A stretch of DNA of 49,603 bases from Bacteriovoracaceae bacterium (GTDB lineage: Bacteria; Bdellovibrionota; Bacteriovoracia; Bacteriovoracales; Bacteriovoracaceae), in contig JAGLPP010000055.1 of assembly GCA_023137315.1 (NCBI GenBank), positions 1 to 49,603 of the forward strand, in the 5' to 3' direction. The notes under the pieces were generated by a model. That model worked only from the letters and a program-made list of their open reading frames with translations. It had not been told where the DNA came from and did no database searches. Shown here piece by piece: positions 2,047-44,631 of the stretch (its first letter is position 1; each line of letters starts with the position of its first letter). A program made the translations under genes and the position numbers.

Positions 2047-3663
2047 TTATTTTTTATAGGAATTTTTGATCATAAGTTCAAAATAATTTGAAGGATCGGT
2101 GATTGCCTCTTTTTCAAGAATAAATTCCATGGTTCCATTATTCTGTTCAATAATTTTCAAACCATGGATAAAACCTTGAAAAAGTTCAGCCGTCATGGCC
2201 TCCACATTTCTTCCGGAATCCTTATATAACTCAAAATACTCTCCCAGAGCGTCATCGTTAAGTTTAACGATAATATTATGTTCATCGAAGAATCTTCTCT
2301 CACTCTCCCTGACCTTTTCCTCAAAAACCATTCGTCTTGAATAATAAGGATCGGCCATGATCTTCGAAAGCTCTTTTTTCGGATCATCCACCAGATCTTT
2401 TGTTACAACAAAGGACTTTATATCCGTTGACGGAAGCTCAAACTTAAAATCTCTGAAAATTTTCTCACAAACCGTCATAAGCGCACGCGCTCCCGTACTT
2501 TCTTCAAAAGCATACTCCGCAATTTCCCTTAACGCCTCGTCCTTGAAAAAAACCTCTATTCCATAAGCACTGAAAGCACGAATATATTGATAAATAATAG
2601 AGCCCTTTGATTCCTTCAAAATTCCGTACAGATCATCAATACTCAATGCCTGACATGAAAGTCTGACAGGAAGACGGCCTATAAATTCAGGCTCAAGACC
2701 AAAATCAATAAAATCCTTCGTATTGGCGTACTTGAAAATATCCTTTTCACTTTTCAACTTATCCTTTGATTTTGGAGACTTCAAACCTATGGCCCCTGTT
2801 CTGAGTCTCTTTCTGATAATATCGTCCAGTCCATGAAAGGCACCACTGACAATAAAGAGAATATGCTTGGTATTTATCACTTTTTTCGAGACCTTTCCTG
2901 AACGTTGAAAATCCATAAAAGCCTGCATCTGGGATGCCACGTCGTTTCCCGAACGAAGATCTATTTCCGTTTCCTCCATTAGCTTCAAAAGAGCGTGTTG
3001 TACGCCGCGACCTGAAACATCCTTTCCTCCATGCTCACTGCTTCCTGCAATCTTGTCAGCTTCATCAAAATAGATAATGCCATATTGAGCAAGCTCAATA
3101 TTATCCGAGGCCATATGAACGAGGTCCCTCACAAGATCATCCACGTTGGAACCAACATATCCCATTTCAGTAAAGCGTGTTGCATCGGCCTTTACAAATG
3201 GAACACCTATAAGCTTGGCAATAACCTTCACAAGATATGTTTTTCCCACTCCTGTGGGCCCGAGCATAATGACATTTTGTTTGGAATAGTTGTCATCATC
3301 AAGTTCAATATCCGGGTCCATGTCTGCTTCATGGCATTCCCGAACATGGTTGTAATGATCGCAAACAGCGATGGCCAGTGCCTTCTTTGCTTCATCCTGT
3401 TTTATGACATATTTATCAAGATAATTTTTAATATCCCTTGGACTATAGTCGAAATCAAGATCGAATTCGGGTCTTTCTTCAACTTCTTCAGGCTCTTCAA
3501 TCGTTTCATTACTATCAGAAACGCCGTCAAATCCAAATGGTTGGGCAACAATCTGAATATTCTTGCCAAACTTGTCACGCATAAATGTTTCGATCTCTTT
3601 TTGAATTTCATCAGGACTGGGAGGAGTTGGGTGACTGGGATTATCCTTTTCACGGTCTGACAT
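2047..3663 (-). CDS. ClpX-like AAA+ ATPase lacking the zinc-binding domain
   Basis: A 538-residue AAA+ unfoldase. The core is close to ClpX: Walker A GPTGVGKT (residues 135-142), pore-loop GYVG (168-171), Walker B FDEAD (199-203), DVSGRGVQHALLKLME, EFIGRLPV, and a sensor-2 TGAR. ClpX normally starts with a four-cysteine zinc-binding domain that recruits adaptors and substrates. Here residues 1-70 are instead an acidic, proline-rich stretch with no cysteines, and a C-terminal extension of about 110 residues follows the AAA+ module. The ClpP-docking loop appears as IGL (in TGAIGLKS), which still fits the [LIVMP]-G-[FL] consensus, so ClpP partnership is possible. The ATG at 3663 has an AGAGG site; an upstream start at 3735 would run into a perfect inverted repeat. 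Probably a second ClpX paralogue; no clpP is visible here. Confidence 0.85.
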   Translation of the reverse strand: MSDREKDNPSHPTPPSPDEIQKEIETFMRDKFGKNIQIVAQPFGFDGVSDSNETIEEPEEVEERPEFDLDFDYSPRDIKNYLDKYVIKQDEAKKALAIAVCDHYNHVRECHEADMDPDIELDDDNYSKQNVIMLGPTGVGKTYLVKVIAKLIGVPFVKADATRFTEMGYVGSNVDDLVRDLVHMASDNIELAQYGIIYFDEADKIAGSSEHGGKDVSGRGVQHALLKLMEETEIDLRSGNDVASQMQAFMDFQRSGKVSKKVINTKHILFIVSGAFHGLDDIIRKRLRTGAIGLKSPKSKDKLKSEKDIFKYANTKDFIDFGLEPEFIGRLPVRLSCQALSIDDLYGILKESKGSIIYQYIRAFSAYGIEVFFKDEALREIAEYAFEESTGARALMTVCEKIFRDFKFELPSTDIKSFVVTKDLVDDPKKELSKIMADPYYSRRMVFEEKVRESERRFFDEHNIIVKLNDDALGEYFELYKDSGRNVEAMTAELFQGFIHGLKIIEQNNGTMEFILEKEAITDPSNYFELMIKNSYKK

Positions 3664-3734
3664 ATCAACCTCTGTATCTAAGAGTAAAATGTAATTATCG
3701 CCAGCACATCCCCTTTGTAAACTCTTTTTAAACA

Positions 3735-3770
3735 TATTTCATGCGTCAATCATGGATGACGCATGAAATA
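3735..3770. repeat. Perfect 14-bp inverted repeat upstream of the ClpX-like gene
   Basis: Arms TATTTCATGCGTCA (3735-3748) and TGACGCATGAAATA (3757-3770) are exact reverse complements separated by 8 bases. The repeat lies between the divergent ClpX-like gene and the small exported cysteine protein. No U-run follows on either strand beyond a weak TGTTTAAAAAG on the minus side, so a regulator-binding site or 5' UTR hairpin is likelier than a terminator. Confidence 0.7.
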
Positions 3771-7475: not shown

Positions 7476-10400
7476 TTATTTCAGGCCCACAGCGAGAACG
7501 TCATCCAACCATGCACAGTCTTCACCATGATCGGCGGAATAATCCTTTGAATACTCCCACTTCATAATATGTTTGCCTGAAGTAACCGTATAAAACTCAT
7601 TCGACCAGTCAACTTCCCCACTCCATTCACCCTTTTTTTCTCCATCAATATAAAAGGTGAGTTTGTCGTATTTTTTCTCGGAGGAAACACGCTTGTAAAA
7701 TGATATACTTCCAGGTTTTGCAAAATCCAGTTCAAGAATCATCGTGGATGACTGTCTTCTGGAAATCTCCCCGGATTTGACGGAATAGTTTCCACCATAA
7801 ACATTCTCGCTCACGACAGACCACTCGGCATTACCTTCGAAGGTCCAGTTGTTACCGGAAAAATCACCTGTTTCAAAATCATCCGTCATTCCAACAACCA
7901 CTCCATGATTATAAACCTTGTTAATCTCATCACCTGTAATTTCAAGTGAAAAATTGGCCAAAGTTCCATAACCAACGTTATTACCAAATGAAACCTCGTA
8001 ATCCACCACCTTTTCGCTTTGTGCCTTTATCACCCCCAATTCCTTGTCAGGATTATGAACATTAATATCCAGTCCTGATACAATCTGAGCGAGATTGGAG
8101 GCAAGTTCCGGAGTTGTGGCGTGACCTGTATTTTTAATTACATAGCGAATACTTCTTGTTTCCCCGGGATTCACGCCGGAATTTCCAATAATACGGCCTG
8201 AAATAGAAAGCTTTGGAGCATTAACCCTGATAGTAAAATAACTCTTGTATTCCTTCTTGGCATCATCTGTCACAATCAACTTGAATGGCACCATCATCTG
8301 GTCTTCAATATCCCTTTTGAAACGAACCTTGAAAGCATCTTCAAGCTTCACCATTTTACCTGGAGCTATGGACGCGACGGCTTGCTCACCGTCCACGATG
8401 GCATCAACATGTTCCGAGTCAGTTACGATTTTCGCCATAAGATTGTTTGATGTATCATTTCCAACATTGCGAAGAACGACATTAATTCCAACAGTCTCAC
8501 CGTAATCTGCCTGGTTGTTATTGTCATCGGAGACAGAATATTCGTGAAGACTAACATGTGGTCCATCAGGTGGAATCACTCCAATCTCCATGGCCTTGGT
8601 TTCAAGGTTGAAACCAGTTACTGTAAATTTGACTTTCCCTACCTTGAGATTGTGATTGATTGTTACTTTCCCGGAGGAATCAGTCACTCCTGTAAAACCA
8701 ACACCATTCTGATACAGGGAAACCATTGCTCCTGAAACAGGTCCATCAATTCCCGTGACTGTTGTTCCAAATGGAACACCTGCAAGAACGGAGTCATTGG
8801 AAAAATTTATTTTTTGCGGTTTATCCGATCTTACGTGAAGGGATGCATCCCCAAAAATCGTCCATGTCTGAATGGTTTTAAGATCATCGCTTCCATTTGA
8901 TTCGGCGTACATAAGACAAGCGGCATTCATTGCAAGAGAACCATAAGTGGTCCTTCCACTCGCAACACTGGTTCCGTTACCTGGATTCTGCGAATAATCA
9001 TAACCACCGATAAGAAGATCATTGAAATAATCCTGTCCTCTCATGGGTGGTGCCCAAGGCTGATTTATTGTGGACATCCACGCCCCAACTGCACCGCCAC
9101 CTTCTTTTTTAAGCCATGCCTCAGCAAAGGAATCTCCACCGCTTTTGTGAAACTTTCCGTTAACACAGGCCACGGAAACAATAAAAGGGAGTTTGATTGC
9201 ATTTTCAAGATCCGCAATATCCCTGTTTGAAAAACCACTTGTGGCCCATGAAGTCTCACTTCCGTGTCCAACATAATTTATAAGGCCAACGCCATGATCA
9301 ATCCAGTCTCCAACATTTCTCGAAGAGACTCCGGAATTTGCATATCCCTCGTGAACAGTTTCATAGGTGGACTCAAGAAGCCTGTGATCACGAATATTTT
9401 TCATATGAGCTTCATCAGACTCACCGTCATCACCAGTACTTGATCCGCCTTCTCCTGAAGCAATACCTATTGCCTTTTTATACCAGGTACCATTCATATC
9501 AGGATTCTTTTCATATTTTATCGTCTTATCCACCTGAATAGTTACATGCTCTGGAGTTTGTGCCGAAAACCTTCCTATAATGACGTCGGCATAACTATCA
9601 GTTCCAACCACACAACCAAGCATGGGATCCATTGGCGCACTCGATGGCCCAGTATCTGATTTGATATCCCCCCAGTCCCCGACAATTTGGACATAAAGAA
9701 TATCATTATCATTTTGATAAGCTTCCTTAATGATATTTTTAACATTGGTTCCGCGCGAAACCTGCTTTTTTAGTACAGTAAAACCCTTCTGCCTTTTCCA
9801 TTCAATATAAGGCCTGATGGCGTCCTCGTCCCGTGAAGTATAAATGACAAGAATTTTTCCCAAATCACCAAGGTAAAGATCCTTTGTCATGTTGTAGTTT
9901 AAAAATAAAGAGTCGTAGATATTGTTCATTGCAGGAAGAATGGTTGCTGACTTTCCTTCAAGAGGATTTACAGGAATTCCGCGTCCTCTTAAAACCTTGA
10001 TCCTGACACTTTTGTAAACCCGAAGAATCTTTTTTTCAGCATTATACCGAAAAGGATAAACATAAATATTTGCTCCTCTTACATCCCTTAAAATGAAAGG
10101 ACGTGATTTTTGCGCAATACGTTCCGGATACCATTCATCCACAACAGAGTTTTTTGCAATCTCGTAAGGTATATTTTCAGGATTCTGGTCACGATAGATG
10201 ACTCCCTTTGAAGGCAAAAGCGGATATGAAAGACGATAATCTGTATACTCACTGTCTGCAACACTGATCAACATATTATCCCTTGGGCCAAGCTGTAATG
10301 ATGCATGAATAAAAGGCAGCTCGGCAAATCCCTCTTTTCGAGTCACGACCCTTCCACCAAAATTAATCTTGGTCCATGTCCTTCCATCACGACTAACTTC

Positions 10401-10556
10401 ATCCAGGGAATAATCCCCCAACTTGTAATCAAGTTCGTAAATGGTCTTCTTATCCCTAACCTTTCTTAATTCCACATTAAAAGGTTTCGCGGCAAATGAA
10501 CCAGTAACAAACAAAATTAACAATATAAAAGAGAGTATTGTACGCAAAATCATCAT
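7476..10556 (-). CDS. Secreted gingipain-like cysteine protease (peptidase family C25)
   Basis: A 1026-residue exported protease. A Sec signal peptide (residues 1-22, ending SFAA) leads into a C25-type propeptide to about residue 225. The catalytic domain spans about 230-590, with GHGSET giving His431 and SVACVNG giving Cys464, 33 residues apart, the same spacing as His211/Cys244 in gingipain R. After it come immunoglobulin-like/CARDB-like repeats (about 600-860) and a terminal jelly-roll-like domain starting at DDFETGDF and ending CAWLDDVLAVGLK. There is no obvious type IX secretion tail, so it should leave by another route or stay on the surface or in the periplasm. The tandem ATGs follow a GGAAGG site. 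Neighbouring exported hydrolases suggest extracellular proteolysis. Sure of family, not of specificity. Confidence 0.93.
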   Translation of the reverse strand: MMILRTILSFILLILFVTGSFAAKPFNVELRKVRDKKTIYELDYKLGDYSLDEVSRDGRTWTKINFGGRVVTRKEGFAELPFIHASLQLGPRDNMLISVADSEYTDYRLSYPLLPSKGVIYRDQNPENIPYEIAKNSVVDEWYPERIAQKSRPFILRDVRGANIYVYPFRYNAEKKILRVYKSVRIKVLRGRGIPVNPLEGKSATILPAMNNIYDSLFLNYNMTKDLYLGDLGKILVIYTSRDEDAIRPYIEWKRQKGFTVLKKQVSRGTNVKNIIKEAYQNDNDILYVQIVGDWGDIKSDTGPSSAPMDPMLGCVVGTDSYADVIIGRFSAQTPEHVTIQVDKTIKYEKNPDMNGTWYKKAIGIASGEGGSSTGDDGESDEAHMKNIRDHRLLESTYETVHEGYANSGVSSRNVGDWIDHGVGLINYVGHGSETSWATSGFSNRDIADLENAIKLPFIVSVACVNGKFHKSGGDSFAEAWLKKEGGGAVGAWMSTINQPWAPPMRGQDYFNDLLIGGYDYSQNPGNGTSVASGRTTYGSLAMNAACLMYAESNGSDDLKTIQTWTIFGDASLHVRSDKPQKINFSNDSVLAGVPFGTTVTGIDGPVSGAMVSLYQNGVGFTGVTDSSGKVTINHNLKVGKVKFTVTGFNLETKAMEIGVIPPDGPHVSLHEYSVSDDNNNQADYGETVGINVVLRNVGNDTSNNLMAKIVTDSEHVDAIVDGEQAVASIAPGKMVKLEDAFKVRFKRDIEDQMMVPFKLIVTDDAKKEYKSYFTIRVNAPKLSISGRIIGNSGVNPGETRSIRYVIKNTGHATTPELASNLAQIVSGLDINVHNPDKELGVIKAQSEKVVDYEVSFGNNVGYGTLANFSLEITGDEINKVYNHGVVVGMTDDFETGDFSGNNWTFEGNAEWSVVSENVYGGNYSVKSGEISRRQSSTMILELDFAKPGSISFYKRVSSEKKYDKLTFYIDGEKKGEWSGEVDWSNEFYTVTSGKHIMKWEYSKDYSADHGEDCAWLDDVLAVGLK

Positions 10557-11497: not shown

Positions 11498-12610
11498 CTA
11501 CTCTTCCCATTCACACTGCAAAAAACCAGGCTGATCTTCTGGTTTAAAATCCTTTGGAACAGTTTCCCTGGTCAGCGTCGACGCTATGTATAATTTTGAA
11601 TCGAAGTCAAATTGCTGATTTACATAATTCCAACTTGTATCAATCTTTGAAATGGACTCAGGTTCCAATGAAAATTTGTATATCTTGGTATCCGCCTCAA
11701 CAATCTTTTTATTTTTAATATATCCGTACTTTGCAGTCAGGTTACATTTCACCGGATGCTTGCAAATATTGAAAAAAACCTCACCGGCAAAAATACGGTG
11801 AACTTTCGTTGTATCCAATCTATTTCCAATTGTCCTTATATGGTGAACACACTGACCGGCCTTTTTTATCAAATGAAATTTTTCTTTCATTGGCAACGGT
11901 TCCTTCGGCTTGTAACCGCACTGTGGTATATGAACTTTCGCGCTATAATGGGTCTCCCTGTTTTTTTTATCCACAAGAAGAAGTCTCAAAGTTGCCCTTT
12001 CCTCTAAAAACTTTTTTCTTTTCAGGATCACAAACTCAGGATTGATGGAATAGACATCCAGATATTGCGACGGGGTCAAAACCAGATCGTACTCGTAGGC
12101 CTCAAGAAGTTTGTCAAAATTCACTGGTTTCCCGTTTTTTTGACGAAACCGCACCTTAAAAAGACATTCAACATCGGCCGTAAGATCAATTGACCCCTTA
12201 TCTCCACCAATCTTTCGAATCTCGGCCTGTATGTAGATCATCTTTTGAAGACCTCCCCTGTTTTCAAAAAGCATCTGCGGACGAACGATCTCCACATTGA
12301 CGACATTGTCCTTCCCTGCTCTTTCAATTTTAAAGGCCTTCTTTGGCAAAATATAAAGCTGCCAACGACCATCCAGTTTAATCCTGAGTGAAAACGTCCG
12401 GCCCTTGAGAGAGGAAACATCTGCACTTTGTTCCTGAATATGGATGATCATTTTTTCCCAGCCTTCAATAAATCCCTGGATTCCCAAAGGCATTGTGGAT
12501 TCAACTTTCTTAACATACTGCTGCTCCACACCACCCTTGTCTTCTGTGCTGGAACAGGAAAAAACAAGGAAAACCACAAGTAACTGAATAAAAATTGCTA
12601 ATCGTTTCAT
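11498..12610 (-). CDS. Putative lipoprotein, unknown function
   Basis: A 370-residue lipoprotein. The N-terminus MKRLAIFIQLLVVFLVFSC carries a lipobox ending in Cys19, followed by SSTED. Ser at +2 would favour outer-membrane sorting under the classical rule. The rest is a soluble beta-rich protein (GRTFSLRIKLDGRWQLYIL, SIDLTADVECLFKVRF, YSAKVHIPQCGYKPKEP) with four further cysteines in the second half. No catalytic motif is evident. The ATG has a TTGGAG site. It stands alone between the small exported protein and the divergent DUF362 gene. I do not recognise the family. Confidence 0.8.
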   Translation of the reverse strand: MKRLAIFIQLLVVFLVFSCSSTEDKGGVEQQYVKKVESTMPLGIQGFIEGWEKMIIHIQEQSADVSSLKGRTFSLRIKLDGRWQLYILPKKAFKIERAGKDNVVNVEIVRPQMLFENRGGLQKMIYIQAEIRKIGGDKGSIDLTADVECLFKVRFRQKNGKPVNFDKLLEAYEYDLVLTPSQYLDVYSINPEFVILKRKKFLEERATLRLLLVDKKNRETHYSAKVHIPQCGYKPKEPLPMKEKFHLIKKAGQCVHHIRTIGNRLDTTKVHRIFAGEVFFNICKHPVKCNLTAKYGYIKNKKIVEADTKIYKFSLEPESISKIDTSWNYVNQQFDFDSKLYIASTLTRETVPKDFKPEDQPGFLQCEWEE

Positions 12611-13797: not shown

Positions 13798-13825
13798 GTC
13801 GACAATTAAACACATTAGGTATAAA
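13796..13825 (+). promoter_or_regulatory. Promoter-like sequence for tRNA-Gln / gatED
   Basis: TTGTCG at 13796-13801 resembles a -35 box and TATAAA at 13820-13825 a -10 box, with an 18-base spacer. Transcription would start near 13832, about 16 bases before the mature tRNA. No other strong promoter is seen between the tRNA and gatE. Confidence 0.5.
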
Positions 13826-13847
13826 TTTTTTTGCATCGAAAGCTTGC

Positions 13848-13922
13848 TGGGGTGTCGACAAGTGGTAAGTCATCAGATTTTGATTCTGCCATGCGCAGGT
13901 TCGAGTCCTGCCACCCCAGCCA
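13848..13922 (+). tRNA. tRNA-Gln (anticodon TTG)
   Basis: A 75-base cloverleaf with CCA encoded. Acceptor stem TGGGGTG pairs with CACCCCA, followed by G and CCA. The D arm is GAC/GTC around a loop with GG. The anticodon loop TTTTGAT presents TTG (reads CAA/CAG). The T arm is GCAGG-TTCGAGT-CCTGC. The anticodon stem has four good pairs plus a T-C mismatch at 27-43. The first pair is U1-A72, as in bacterial tRNA-Gln, and the whole resembles Escherichia coli tRNA-Gln(UUG). It lies 45 bases before gatE with no visible terminator between, so the primary transcript may carry both. Confidence 0.97.
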
Positions 13923-13967
13923 TTTTATATTTTGTTTGTTAAAAATACCCCATATCCCCGAAGTGTT

Positions 13968-15938
13968 ATGAAAAATCTGGACCCTGTTCAAAACAATGAG
14001 CTGACCAAAAAAAATACTGGATATATCCCAAGAAAAAAAGCAACACAAAAAACCTACGATGACCTTGGATTCATGTCCGGACTTGAAATCCATCAACAGC
14101 TTAAAACAAAAAAGAAACTTTTCTGTCGCTGCCCTGCGGGCATCTATCAGGATTTCGATGATTTTGATGCCGAGATTGTTCGACACATGAGACCGACTCT
14201 ATCAGAACTTGGAGAATACGACGGCACGGCCTTAATGGAGTTTAAGACAAAAAAAGAAATCATCTATCGCATCAAGGATGAAACGGCCTGCACTTATGAC
14301 ATCGACGACACTCCTCCATTTCCAATAAATCGACAGGCCCTGGAATACGCTATTGAGATCGCGCTACTGACCGGACTTAATATTGTTGGTGAATTTCATA
14401 TTGCAAGAAAACAATATCTCGACGGTTCAATCCCCACCGGTTTTCAAAGAACCGGCATTGTTGGAATTGAGGGCGAAATCCCACTGAAAAACAAAAAAGT
14501 CAGAATCATACAAATGTCAATTGAAGAGGATTCATGTCGTGAAGTAAGCGATGTTCGACATACGAGAATCTATGCTACAGACCGCCTTGGAATGCCTCTT
14601 ATTGAAACAGTCACATATCCTGACATGAAACACCCCGACGAAGTTAAAGAAGCCGCTCACTACATACGATTTCTTGGACGCTCAACCGGAAAAGTAAGAA
14701 CAGGCAGCGGTGCTGCAAGACAGGACGTCAACGTGAGTATTGAGGGCGGAACACGGGTCGAAATCAAGGGAGTATCATCCATTGCCGCTATTCCTGAACT
14801 GGTACATAATGAGGCGTTCAGACAAAAGGCCTTACTGCTGATAAAAGATATTCTAAACGAAAGAATCAAAAACAGATTCAAAGTGAATTTCAAGGAACTC
14901 AATCCAAACGAGTTTGGAATTGACTACAAACCACTTCAAAACAGCTTGAAGGATGGTTTTAAAATTATCGCGATAAACCTCCCGCACTGCTCAGGCATCC
15001 TCAGTCACTTTACACAGACTGGAAAAAATTTCTCTGACGAAATCACAGACCGCCTGAAGGTTATCGCCTGTCTTGAACGACCAAACATGCTTCATAGTGA
15101 GGAGGAAAAATCCCCTATCACTGAAAAACAGTGGACGGATATTAAAAAAATTCTGAACGCAAAGAACGAAGATGCACAGATAGTTATCTGGACATCCGAT
15201 TTTGATCTCAAAATCGCAGTTGAAACAATCGAGGAAAGAATCGAACTTGCAATGAACGGCGTTCCAAATGAAACCAGAAAATCCATTCAAAACGGGCTGA
15301 CAATTTTTGAAAGAGTTCTTCCTGGTGCCGACAGGATGTATCCAGATACTGATTCCACCCCAATCCCAATAATTGAAAAAGATGTTGCACGTCTGGAAAA
15401 AAATCTGCCCGTCAGTATTTCAAGGAGATTCAAGGAACTGACTGATTGGAAAATACCAATTGACTCCTGGCCCTATCTCCTTCGATATAACCTCATACCA
15501 ATGATTGAGGATATTATAAAAAGGACCAATTTTCCGCCAAAATTCATCGCCACAACCTTTGCTCATCAACTAAAAGGCCTTGAGGGAAGAAATGGTGGAA
15601 AAAACACAATCTCCACTTTTAAAAAAGTAAAAAAACTTTTTGAATTCGTCTCCGAAAAGAAACTTCACTACGAAATTATCTGGGATATGCTTAAATTCAT
15701 TTACGAACATCCAAAAATGGATTTCGATTCAGTTTTAATTGAACTTGATTACAGTGATAGCAACATGAAAAAAATCCTTTCCGACGTTCCTGTAATGAGA
15801 GACATTTTTACACAAATTGCAAAAACAAAAAGAAAGGAAGCTGAAATAGATTGGATCATTGGTGAATTAAGAAAATTCGCCATTGGAAATATTCCAATGA
15901 ACGATTTAAGGGATGAGGTGGTAAAAACACTCTCGTGA
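13968..15938 (+). CDS. gatE: Archaeal-type Glu-tRNA(Gln) amidotransferase subunit E
   Basis: A 656-residue protein from the ATG at 13968; archaeal GatE is about 620-630. GatE activates Glu on Glu-tRNA(Gln) with ATP and amidates it using ammonia from GatD. Seen here: the GatB/GatE core motif SGLEIHQQL (residues 37-45), the HMRPTLSELGEYDG block (73-86) that marks GatE rather than GatB, DIDDTPPFPINRQAL, RQYLDGS-like KQYLDGSIPTGFQRT, RTGSGAARQDVNVSI, GTRVEIKGV, a central AspRS-like insertion (about 315-430), LPGADRMYPDTDS, and a C-terminal YqeY-like tail. GatB would lack the insertion. The ribosome site is weak, and a TTG at 13932 is in frame. gatD follows 7 bases after the stop. Its presence behind a bacterial tRNA-Gln is highly unusual. 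Confidence 0.96.
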   Translation: MKNLDPVQNNELTKKNTGYIPRKKATQKTYDDLGFMSGLEIHQQLKTKKKLFCRCPAGIYQDFDDFDAEIVRHMRPTLSELGEYDGTALMEFKTKKEIIYRIKDETACTYDIDDTPPFPINRQALEYAIEIALLTGLNIVGEFHIARKQYLDGSIPTGFQRTGIVGIEGEIPLKNKKVRIIQMSIEEDSCREVSDVRHTRIYATDRLGMPLIETVTYPDMKHPDEVKEAAHYIRFLGRSTGKVRTGSGAARQDVNVSIEGGTRVEIKGVSSIAAIPELVHNEAFRQKALLLIKDILNERIKNRFKVNFKELNPNEFGIDYKPLQNSLKDGFKIIAINLPHCSGILSHFTQTGKNFSDEITDRLKVIACLERPNMLHSEEEKSPITEKQWTDIKKILNAKNEDAQIVIWTSDFDLKIAVETIEERIELAMNGVPNETRKSIQNGLTIFERVLPGADRMYPDTDSTPIPIIEKDVARLEKNLPVSISRRFKELTDWKIPIDSWPYLLRYNLIPMIEDIIKRTNFPPKFIATTFAHQLKGLEGRNGGKNTISTFKKVKKLFEFVSEKKLHYEIIWDMLKFIYEHPKMDFDSVLIELDYSDSNMKKILSDVPVMRDIFTQIAKTKRKEAEIDWIIGELRKFAIGNIPMNDLRDEVVKTLS

Positions 15939-15945
15939 GGTAACA

Positions 15946-17331
15946 ATGCTCGACATGTTCAAAGGCCACAGGGGAAAAGCTCTCGAAACGCTGAAAAAAT
16001 TCAAGTCACGCGTTTGGAGTGATGCCATCGTAAAAACGACCCGTGGAGAATTCAAAGGCATCATCCTTCCACGCTCTGAAAATGACGATGATCGCCATAT
16101 CGTTTTAAAGCTTATCACCGGATATAATATCGGAATCAGTGTGGAGACAATTACCGATATTGAAGAAATCGGTTACAAGGAGGCCAACTACAAGATACCT
16201 GAAAAAGAATTTCCCTTCACTGAAGGCCAGGCCAATATCAAGCTTTTTGGAACAGGTGGAACAATCGCCTCCCGACTTGATTACAGAACCGGTGCAGTCA
16301 TTCCTGCGTTTTCGCCAGGAGAACTCTACGGCGCCGTTCCCGAACTCGCAGACATCTGCAACCTTAAGACTGAAAAAATCTTTGCCGTTTTTTCAGAAAA
16401 CATGGGATCAGAACAATACATGAAACTTGCCAAAGCAATTGGCAAGGAGATCAAAAGAGGAATTGACGGTATTGTCATAGGACATGGAACAGATACCATG
16501 CACCACACTGCCGCTGCACTTTCCTTTATGATACAAAATCCCCCGGTTCCAATAGTCATGGTTGGGTCTCAACGATCAAGTGACAGGCCGTCATCAGACG
16601 CGGCCTTAAATCTTATGTATGCAACAAAGGCCGCCTCAGAATCAGATATTGCCGAGGTCATGGTATGCATGTTTGGATCAACTTCAGACGATTATGGACT
16701 TCTTCACCGCGGAACAAGAATAAGAAAAATGCACTCATCATATCGCTCCACGTTCAGAACCATTGGAGATATTCCACTGGCAATGATTACAAGAGACAAG
16801 ATCACCACCATTCAAAAAAAATATCACAAAAGAAAAAAAACAACGAAAGAAATGAAAATCATTCCGGCATGGGAGGAGAAAACCACCCTCCTTTATTACT
16901 ACCCGGACATGATGCCGGATATGATTGATTCCATGATAAACAATGGCTACAAAGGATGTATTATCGCCGGTACAGGACTGGGCCACGTAAACAAGCCACT
17001 ATACCCTGCTCTGGAAAGGGCCGTAAAAGCTGGTATGCATATCTATATGACCGTACAAACCCTCTGGGGCTACACCCATATGAGTGTTTATGAAACCGGA
17101 CGTGATCTTATGAGTATCGGAGTGATTCCTGCCGAAAACATGCTCCCGGAAGTTGCCTACGTGAAACTCGCCTGGGCTCTTGGACAGTCAAATGACCGCG
17201 AGGAGGTAAAGAAAATCATGCTCACTCCCGTTTGTGGCGAAATCACCGAACGCGAACCATATAACGGTTACCTCATTTTTCAAGGTGGCATCCCGGAAGT
17301 TGAGGATTTCATAAAAAAAGTACACAAATAG
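15946..17331 (+). CDS. gatD: Archaeal-type Glu-tRNA(Gln) amidotransferase subunit D
   Basis: A 461-residue asparaginase-fold amidase that frees ammonia, from glutamine or asparagine, for GatE. The N-terminal beta-barrel domain specific to GatD is present (residues 20-75: TTRGEFKGIILPRSE, IVLKLITGYNIGI), so this is not a plain asparaginase. All catalytic residues of the fold can be placed: Thr106 (GTGGTIAS), Tyr113, Thr182 and Asp183 (GHGTDTM), and Lys261 (GTRIRKMHSS). Later motifs include IIAGTGLGHV and VQTLWGYTHMSVYETG, both GatD-like. The GAGG ribosome site overlaps the gatE stop codon, so the pair is translationally coupled and the enzyme complete. A lysine-rich loop near residues 285-305 is somewhat longer than expected. 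Confidence 0.96.
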   Translation: MLDMFKGHRGKALETLKKFKSRVWSDAIVKTTRGEFKGIILPRSENDDDRHIVLKLITGYNIGISVETITDIEEIGYKEANYKIPEKEFPFTEGQANIKLFGTGGTIASRLDYRTGAVIPAFSPGELYGAVPELADICNLKTEKIFAVFSENMGSEQYMKLAKAIGKEIKRGIDGIVIGHGTDTMHHTAAALSFMIQNPPVPIVMVGSQRSSDRPSSDAALNLMYATKAASESDIAEVMVCMFGSTSDDYGLLHRGTRIRKMHSSYRSTFRTIGDIPLAMITRDKITTIQKKYHKRKKTTKEMKIIPAWEEKTTLLYYYPDMMPDMIDSMINNGYKGCIIAGTGLGHVNKPLYPALERAVKAGMHIYMTVQTLWGYTHMSVYETGRDLMSIGVIPAENMLPEVAYVKLAWALGQSNDREEVKKIMLTPVCGEITEREPYNGYLIFQGGIPEVEDFIKKVHK

Positions 17332-42480: not shown

Positions 42481-44631
42481 TTGAAAAAGGTCATACTCGT
42501 TATATTACTACTCTTTTCATATCAGTCGTTTACTGCTGAAAATGTCAATCTGAAGCTTTTTAAGGCCATCATTGCAAACGAGCAAAAAGAATTTGAAAAA
42601 CTTCTCAAAGACAAAAAAACCAACGTCAATGCCAAAAATAAAAAACACGTCACCCTGCTAATGGCCGCCATCTACAAAAAAAGAACAAACATGGCAAAAA
42701 TGCTCCTGGAACATGAAAAAATTGACATCAACATTGTCTCAAAAAACAAACTCAATGCTCTAACACTTGCCGCCTCCATGGAAAACAGTGAAATTCTCGA
42801 AATTCTTCTTGAGCGAAAAGACCTGACCGTCGATATTCAGGATTACAAGGGAAATACGGCCCTTATGTACCTTGCCTCAAGTGACTACAGCACCCTTTTG
42901 GAAAAACTACTCTCACATAAACCAAAAATCTCACTTAAAAATAACGATGGTGAGTCCGCCTTGATTTTTGCCTGTAAGGCGGCAAAACCAAATCATATCA
43001 ATTTTCTTCTGGACAATGATGCCGACCCGAATGATTCCGATTCACAAAAAATGTCTGCATTCATGTATATGATTGATCTTATGATGAAAAAAGAAGTACT
43101 TCTTCAATATGTCGATCAAATCAAGAATCTTGCACAAAAAAGAAATGTTGACCACGCAAACATTCTCCATTTTGCAATAGACAACTCAATGACCGCTCTT
43201 GCAAAAATCCTTATTGCAAAAAATATGGATATTAATGCCAAATTGAAAAACGACGCCACTCCGTTGAATATTGCCATCTACAGGAAAAATGTTGAAATAG
43301 TGGAAGAGCTACTAAAAAATAATGCAAACCCTGATAATCTAATAGAAAAAACCGGACGAACCCCGCTCTTTGACGCCATCAATACAAAAAACACAAAGAT
43401 AGTAAGTCTTCTTTTGGACTACAATGCCAGTATCAACCACATTGCAAAAAACGGAACCACACCACTTATTTGGGCCGTTCTAACCGGTTCAGAAAAAAAT
43501 GTTGAAATATTGCTTTCAAAAAATGCTGATGTCCTTGTTCAGGACAAAAACAATATCGATGCTTTGACATACACGGCCTTTTCCGGCAATGAGAAAATCT
43601 TTTCCATGCTTTCCGAACAAATCATCTGGAATTCAATTGATCTTTCGCGAAAACAATCAATCTATCTAAGTGCCATCATATCAAACAACCTTGAGATCAT
43701 TAAAAAAATAAGTGATATACAGGAAAATTACACAGACTTTTTAAATAATACAATAACTCCGGACACCTTTGCCTTGAAAGAATTCATTGATCCAAATACA
43801 GGAAAAAGAGAGATTGAAATACTTAACTTAAACGCCACCGAAAAATCACTGTTTGAACCGGCATTAAGCTCATCCATCTCTCAAGGCCACTACCTGATTT
43901 TTAAACATCTTCTTGAAAATAATGTTGTCATTCAGGATATTGAAAAAAATCTTAACATGGCCGTAAGTAAAAATGTCATAATGGATTACGAGGAGGAGTT
44001 TGAGGAAAATGGATATCATAAAATTATATTTAAACTCCTTTCAAACAAAATTTTTTCCACCGAATTCATTGAACAAATACTACAAACTTCAATATTGAAT
44101 GGTGATTATCTGACAGCTCATCAAATTCTTGAACGGGCCCCGAAAAATATCATCGAAAGCACTGATGGCAAGGGAAAAACGCTCTTAATGCTGGCGGTCC
44201 TTGGAGAAAATATTCATATTGTAAAACTCATCCATTCCCGAGATCAATCGGCCATTGATATAAAAGACGACGACACAGGTAATACGGCCCTGCATTTTGC
44301 AGCACAGAGGGCCCTCACCGGGATTGCACTATGGCTAATCAGTGCCAATGCCAATGTTGATCCCACGGATGATAAAAACAGAACACCTCTTATGTATGCA
44401 GCTCAAAACAGTAATTTTGAATTACTTGAGAAATTACTCGAACTTGGTGCCAATCCAAACCAAAAAACAACCTTTGGCCATACACCTATTCGATATGCCA
44501 TTGGAAGAGGTGATAATATTGATTTTGGAATCATCTCCATGCTTATTAATCACGGCGCAAATCCAGAAGAAGCAATCAAGATACTAAAAAGAAAAGGGAT
44601 AAAAGTGCCTGAATTCATACTACAACAATAA
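42481..44631 (+). CDS. Exported ankyrin-repeat protein
   Basis: A 716-residue protein read from a TTG five bases after GGAG. A signal peptide (VILVILLLFSYQSFTA) is followed almost entirely by ankyrin repeats, about a dozen or more, with typical starts such as GNTALMYLA, GESALIFAC, DATPLNIAI, GRTPLFDAI, GTTPLIWAV, GNTALHFAA, NRTPLMYAA and GHTPIRYAI. Between about residues 385 and 560 the repeats are degenerate. Ankyrin stacks bind proteins; one exported to the periplasm or beyond could bind host, prey or envelope proteins. It stands alone between the ABC operon and a convergent isomerase gene. Confidence 0.9.
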   Translation: MKKVILVILLLFSYQSFTAENVNLKLFKAIIANEQKEFEKLLKDKKTNVNAKNKKHVTLLMAAIYKKRTNMAKMLLEHEKIDINIVSKNKLNALTLAASMENSEILEILLERKDLTVDIQDYKGNTALMYLASSDYSTLLEKLLSHKPKISLKNNDGESALIFACKAAKPNHINFLLDNDADPNDSDSQKMSAFMYMIDLMMKKEVLLQYVDQIKNLAQKRNVDHANILHFAIDNSMTALAKILIAKNMDINAKLKNDATPLNIAIYRKNVEIVEELLKNNANPDNLIEKTGRTPLFDAINTKNTKIVSLLLDYNASINHIAKNGTTPLIWAVLTGSEKNVEILLSKNADVLVQDKNNIDALTYTAFSGNEKIFSMLSEQIIWNSIDLSRKQSIYLSAIISNNLEIIKKISDIQENYTDFLNNTITPDTFALKEFIDPNTGKREIEILNLNATEKSLFEPALSSSISQGHYLIFKHLLENNVVIQDIEKNLNMAVSKNVIMDYEEEFEENGYHKIIFKLLSNKIFSTEFIEQILQTSILNGDYLTAHQILERAPKNIIESTDGKGKTLLMLAVLGENIHIVKLIHSRDQSAIDIKDDDTGNTALHFAAQRALTGIALWLISANANVDPTDDKNRTPLMYAAQNSNFELLEKLLELGANPNQKTTFGHTPIRYAIGRGDNIDFGIISMLINHGANPEEAIKILKRKGIKVPEFILQQ

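Follow-up and report, generated by a model that had tools for sequence, protein, structure and literature searches.

The locus analyzed here raises two questions: from where a bacterium obtained the GatDE amidotransferase, and whether this enzyme is its only source of Gln-tRNA(Gln). A 2022 review describes GatDE as now present in archaea only and ascribes its non-transfer to co-evolution with the archaeal tRNA-Gln (PMC9499178), and according to a 2014 survey (PMC4206432), the two routes to Gln-tRNA(Gln) were not known to occur together in any bacterium. No papers on bacterial gatD or gatE were found in a weak search covering the open-licence literature only. The window is the whole stretch of DNA analyzed, 49,603 nt (contig JAGLPP010000055.1, here C175), from the Bacteriovoracaceae bacterium assembly GCA_023137315.1 (here G000), which comprises 3.15 Mb in 223 contigs and is 95% complete and 0.98% contaminated. 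A first-pass annotation of the window had proposed an archaeal-type GatDE, acquired horizontally from archaea, cotranscribed with its tRNA-Gln, and implied to be the sole route to Gln-tRNA(Gln).

Structure of the locus

The gene for tRNA-Gln(UUG) (13848-13922, + strand) is the single tRNA gene found in the window using ARAGORN and the sole tRNA-Gln detected in the G000 assembly, the tRNA set of which is incomplete. It has U1-A72, G2-C71, G3-C70, the discriminator G73, and an encoded CCA. The gene for Glu-tRNA(Gln) amidotransferase subunit E, gatE (13968-15938, + strand), encodes 656 aa from an ATG start and matches NF003107 (478.5 bits, cut-off 456, profile positions 4-624 of 630) and TIGR00134 (395.5 bits, cut-off 319.6). 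A longer open reading frame starting with TTG at 13932 is less likely because the genes of two relatives, G017 and G163, have an ATG that aligns to the one at 13968. GatB models also match the window GatE, but far under their cut-offs. After a spacing of 7 nt, gatD (15946-17331, + strand), for the asparaginase-like subunit D, encodes 461 aa, matches NF003217 (508.6 bits, cut-off 310) and TIGR02153 (also above cut-off), and has the domains GatD_N (PF18195), Asparaginase (PF00710), and Asparaginase_C (PF17763). Archaeal structures were matched by both proteins using phmmer, 2d6f_C (E 6e-83) and 1zq1_C (E 1e-79) by GatE and 1zq1_A and 2d6f_A by GatD. When aligned with 2d6f and 1zq1, the catalytic motifs GLEIH, FCRCP, EED, and RQDVNVSI of GatE and GTGGTIA, HGTDT, and RKMHSS of GatD are intact; with both proteins above the NCBIfam equivalog cut-offs, the two genes are intact, as first annotated. 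Elsewhere, the window encodes an ankyrin-repeat-like protein (42481-44631, 716 aa) and a ClpX-like ATPase (2047-3735, 562 aa) that scores under the ClpX cut-off.

The gap between tRNA-Gln and gatE (13923-13967, + strand) is 45 nt, and no + strand terminator-like site was seen when it was scanned; gatE-gatD lies directly behind the tRNA gene. A promoter-like site, TCGACA-17-TAAATT (13799-13827, + strand), was found 5' of tRNA-Gln in a consensus scan; as a bare match it is weak, with 11 such sites in the region and 8.2 expected. Its -35-like TCGACA is identical in G000, G017, and G163, and the -10-like region is partly conserved. The order of tRNA-Gln and gatE is the same in G017 and G163, and the gap is also short there. 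The short gaps, the gap free of terminator-like sites, and the TCGACA kept in relatives make it likely that tRNA-Gln, gatE, and gatD are co-transcribed as a single transcript, in agreement with the first-pass annotation.

Host and inheritance of the locus

Two neighboring genes, outside the function itself, serve as syntenic markers. One encodes a peptidase C25 protein (7476-10556, - strand; PF01364) and the other a protein with no match in Pfam or NCBIfam (11498-12610, - strand). G017 and G163 have orthologues of both next to the cassette, with 54% identity for the former and 48-50% for the latter. The synteny with two bacterial relatives identifies the host as a bacterium and rules out archaeal contamination, which had been named beforehand as an observation that would overturn the proposal; together with the family matches, it upholds an archaeal-type GatDE in a bacterial genome.

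GatE was found above the cut-off in 2 of the 30 genomes in the set of relatives (G000 and G017 only) and in 3 of 369 genomes of the phylum (G000, G017, and G163), which belong to two sister genera in one family; the GluRS tree places G000 and G017 as sisters (99). In all three genomes, tRNA-Gln directly precedes gatE at an orthologous locus. Because tRNA-Gln and orthologous flanking genes adjoin gatE in each of them, the tRNA-gatE-gatD locus is, judged by gene order, one insertion that was then inherited.

Bacterial GatDE and its origin

A scan of GTDB genomes added 35 bacterial GatE loci, in most of which gatD follows immediately; no tRNA-Gln was found in the flanking DNA examined at any of these loci of other groups (0/35). 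At two of the loci (L085 and L117), GatE is encoded, and no gatD was found in the flanking DNA examined. The window GatE and GatD are deeply nested in a bacterial gatE-gatD clade that spans Ignavibacteriota, Kapaibacteria, Aminicenantes, Cloacimonadota, and further groups. The GatE, GatD, and GlnRS of L094 (Ignavibacteriae) and L095 (Desulfobulbaceae) are nearly identical, and the label or bin of one of the two is probably wrong. No GatD relatives were found in viral contigs, and plasmid searches returned one archaeal GatE (Natrinema) and, on the GatD side, mostly ordinary asparaginases.

The GatE tree has 42 rows; the GatE and GatD trees each include two archaeal rows, with the archaeal Natrinema GatE left out. 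The GatE of the window and of G017 falls inside an 8-row bacterial clade that includes Aminicenantes and Cloacimonadota (100/99), and GatD falls in a matching 7-row clade (SH-aLRT 97). GatE identity is 54-64% to the nearest bacterial proteins and 44-54% to the Ignavibacteriota and Kapaibacteria rows vs 34% to archaeal proteins. For GatD, identity to the nearest bacterial proteins is 72-83% (83% to G017 and 72-76% within the clade), with 67-71% to Ignavibacteriota and Kapaibacteria and 44-47% to archaea. The operons of Aminicenantes, Cloacimonadota, Modern_marine.mb.68, and RS_7_18 (L084, L086-L088, and L113) share the gene order and the clade of the G000 operon but have no tRNA-Gln in the flanking DNA examined, and some of these genomes have no GlnRS. 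Those of Ignavibacteriota and Kapaibacteria have the same gatE-gatD order, and most of the genomes also have GlnRS, but they lie outside the window clade. The archaeal enzymes of Methanothermobacter thermautotrophicus (2d6f) and Pyrococcus abyssi (1zq1) share with G000 the two full-length subunits, the catalytic motifs, and GatD_N; G000 differs from them in the identities given above, its bacterial host, its GlnRS, the position of gatE-gatD behind tRNA-Gln, and U1-A72.

The first-pass annotation took the genes to have come from archaea, a view considered here as a direct transfer into the G000 species or a recent ancestor. The protein family was described from archaea and the matched NCBIfam models are named gatE_arch and gatD_arch, but the far lower archaeal identities and the nesting of both proteins in bacterial clades, in trees with two archaeal sequences each, make such a transfer highly improbable; the present trees refute it, barring an archaeal lineage, as yet unsampled, that belongs within the bacterial clade. 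Nesting in a long-known bacterial clade with this gene order had been named as the result that would speak against archaeal acquisition: the nesting and the gene order were found, although the clade is not a long-known one. Since GatE and GatD fall in bacterial clades and identity is highest to bacterial relatives, the donor of the G000 and G017 genes was most likely a bacterium. An ancient archaeal origin of the entire bacterial GatDE clade is possible. That GatDE is "only being found in archaea" (PMC9499178) does not hold for this host; the phrase is a statement of distribution and does not define the enzyme.

Routes to Gln-tRNA(Gln) in G000

Two G000 proteins match PF00749, namely, GluRS on C217 and a full-length GlnRS on C212 (TIGR00440, 773 bits, cut-off 425.8). 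In G000, PF02934 (GatB_N) finds GatE alone and no GatB, and TIGR00132 gives no match to GatA. Thus, the genome search proposed in the first-pass annotation confirmed the absence of GatA and GatB, but GlnRS is present, on a contig of matching composition, and GatDE as the sole route in G000 is rejected on this ground. GatCAB and GatDE perform the same chemistry on Glu-tRNA(Gln), and GatB and GatE both have GatB_N, but GatCAB also serves Asn-tRNA(Asn). AsnRS is present in G000, split across two contigs. Both G000 (C138; L261:691-2013; NF003483, 502 bits, cut-off 353) and G017 (C31; L264:965-2236; 478 bits, cut-off 353) encode an archaeal-type aspartate--tRNA(Asn) ligase alongside AsnRS and without GatCAB.

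If C212 were a binning error, GatDE would be the sole route in G000 too. G000 is a draft of 223 contigs, no GlnRS was detected in the sister G017, and the G000 GlnRS does not adjoin GluRS, unlike that of G002. This is nevertheless improbable: the tetranucleotide correlation of C212 is 0.94-0.96 with the rest of G000 (0.84-0.86 with G017 and 0.35-0.68 with other family members), its GlnRS clusters in a quick tree with the other GlnRS of the family (SH-aLRT 99), on the longest branch, the G000 tRNA-Gln retains G73, and contamination of the assembly is 0.98%. Because the composition of C212 matches G000 and its GlnRS groups with the family, G000 most likely has two predicted routes to Gln-tRNA(Gln), GlnRS and GatDE. 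Among 25 genomes from other groups in which the GTDB scan had found GatE, GlnRS is above the cut-off in 18, with a contig-edge fragment in one more, and was not found in the other 6. By these gene counts, coexistence of GatDE and GlnRS is a pattern among GatE-bearing bacteria.

The sister genus and other relatives

Neither GlnRS nor GatA was found in G017 (95% complete). The discriminator is A73 in both tRNA-Gln copies of G017 and in the gatE-linked tRNA-Gln of G163; it is G73 in G000 and the five GlnRS-only relatives read (G002, G006, G009, G015, and G018). G73 and U1-A72 belong to the bacterial Gln identity for GlnRS (PMC9976931). U1-A72 is present in the tRNA-Gln of G000, G017, and G163, and A1-U72, a property of the archaeal GatDE substrate, is found instead in the tRNA-Gln of the G009, G015, and G018 group. 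A73 agrees with a loss of GlnRS in the sister genus, although other members of the family likewise show variation at the discriminator. Since GlnRS was not found and A73 replaces the identity base G73, GatDE appears to have taken over Gln-tRNA supply in the sister genus, the absence of GlnRS being that of one genome, G017.

Searches for GlnRS, GatB, and GatE found none in eight genomes of the same family (G004, G005, G007, G008, G010, G012, G014, and G016; 85-100% complete), each with tRNA-Gln and one full-length GluRS. For GatA, seven of the eight have no match at E 0.001; in G008, two pieces of one amidase-like frame match TIGR00132 with 128 bits vs a cut-off of 481, and as this is well under the cut-off, they represent an amidase relative, not a GatA equivalog. 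G010 and G012 retain a GluRS-TyrRS pair at the position of the GlnRS-GluRS-TyrRS of G002, and A73 is present in 4 of the 8 genomes. A second AsnRS-type synthetase was rejected as the missing enzyme, the seven genomes other than G008 having 3-4 PF00152 proteins each, the same as GlnRS-bearing relatives. It is a tentative and rather doubtful idea that the family repeatedly replaces its route (GlnRS, then GlnRS plus GatDE, then GatDE alone) and that these eight further genera use an unrecognized enzyme. GlnRS without GatCAB in several family members perhaps recalls what was described for Bacteriovorax marinus (PMC4206432).

Proposed function

The most probable explanation is that an inherited GatDE operon of bacterial origin would provide a second route to Gln-tRNA(Gln), with GlnRS later lost in the sister genus. 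An ancestor of the sub-lineage would have gained gatE-gatD from a bacterial operon pool, the operon would have settled beside tRNA-Gln, and the unit would have been passed down to two sister genera, G000 retaining the family GlnRS and thus two routes and the sister genus relying on GatDE alone. GluRS would place Glu on tRNA-Gln, GatD would release ammonia from Asn or Gln, and GatE would activate the Glu carboxylate with ATP and amidate it to Gln-tRNA(Gln). This working scheme is that known from the family, and it is from sequence that we infer that GatDE is active, that its genes are co-transcribed with tRNA-Gln, that the G000 GluRS forms Glu-tRNA(Gln), and in which direction the change went.

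The main doubts are whether the G000 GluRS charges tRNA-Gln and how GatE would accept a U1-A72 tRNA. Published GatDE recognition involves A1-U72 (PMC9499178), and because the tRNA-Gln of G000 has the bacterial U1-A72, recognition would have to differ. The single GluRS of G000, the closest solved relative of which is Thermotoga maritima GluRS1, has Lys at the position of Thermus thermophilus Arg358, which may disfavor charging of tRNA-Gln. T. maritima GluRS1 is reported to be non-specific (PMC3927822) and has Arg there; the site therefore does not settle GluRS specificity and was dropped as a test.

Alternatively, GatDE may be corrective, with GlnRS making most Gln-tRNA and GatDE rescuing Glu-tRNA(Gln) mischarged by GluRS or GlnRS. 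The coexistence with GlnRS in G000 and most GatE-bearing bacteria tested fits this role, as does the finding that most GluRS of such genomes have Lys or Arg at the site of Arg358. Such a role is unlikely as the general explanation, however, because GatDE must be the main route in G017 and several other GatE-bearing bacteria in which GlnRS was not detected, and the linkage to tRNA-Gln suits main supply.

Implications

Several bacterial phyla include members with GatDE, most of which also have GlnRS, contrary to the statements cited at the outset (PMC9499178 and PMC4206432). The GatDE described here, if working, acts on a tRNA whose identity elements are bacterial. A role in Asn-tRNA synthesis, which can account for GatCAB together with GlnRS, does not account for GatDE together with GlnRS, insofar as GatDE is, to current knowledge, specific for Gln. 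With both routes in one sister genus, and only GatDE plus an altered discriminator base in the other, the pair would allow a stepwise study of synthetase replacement.
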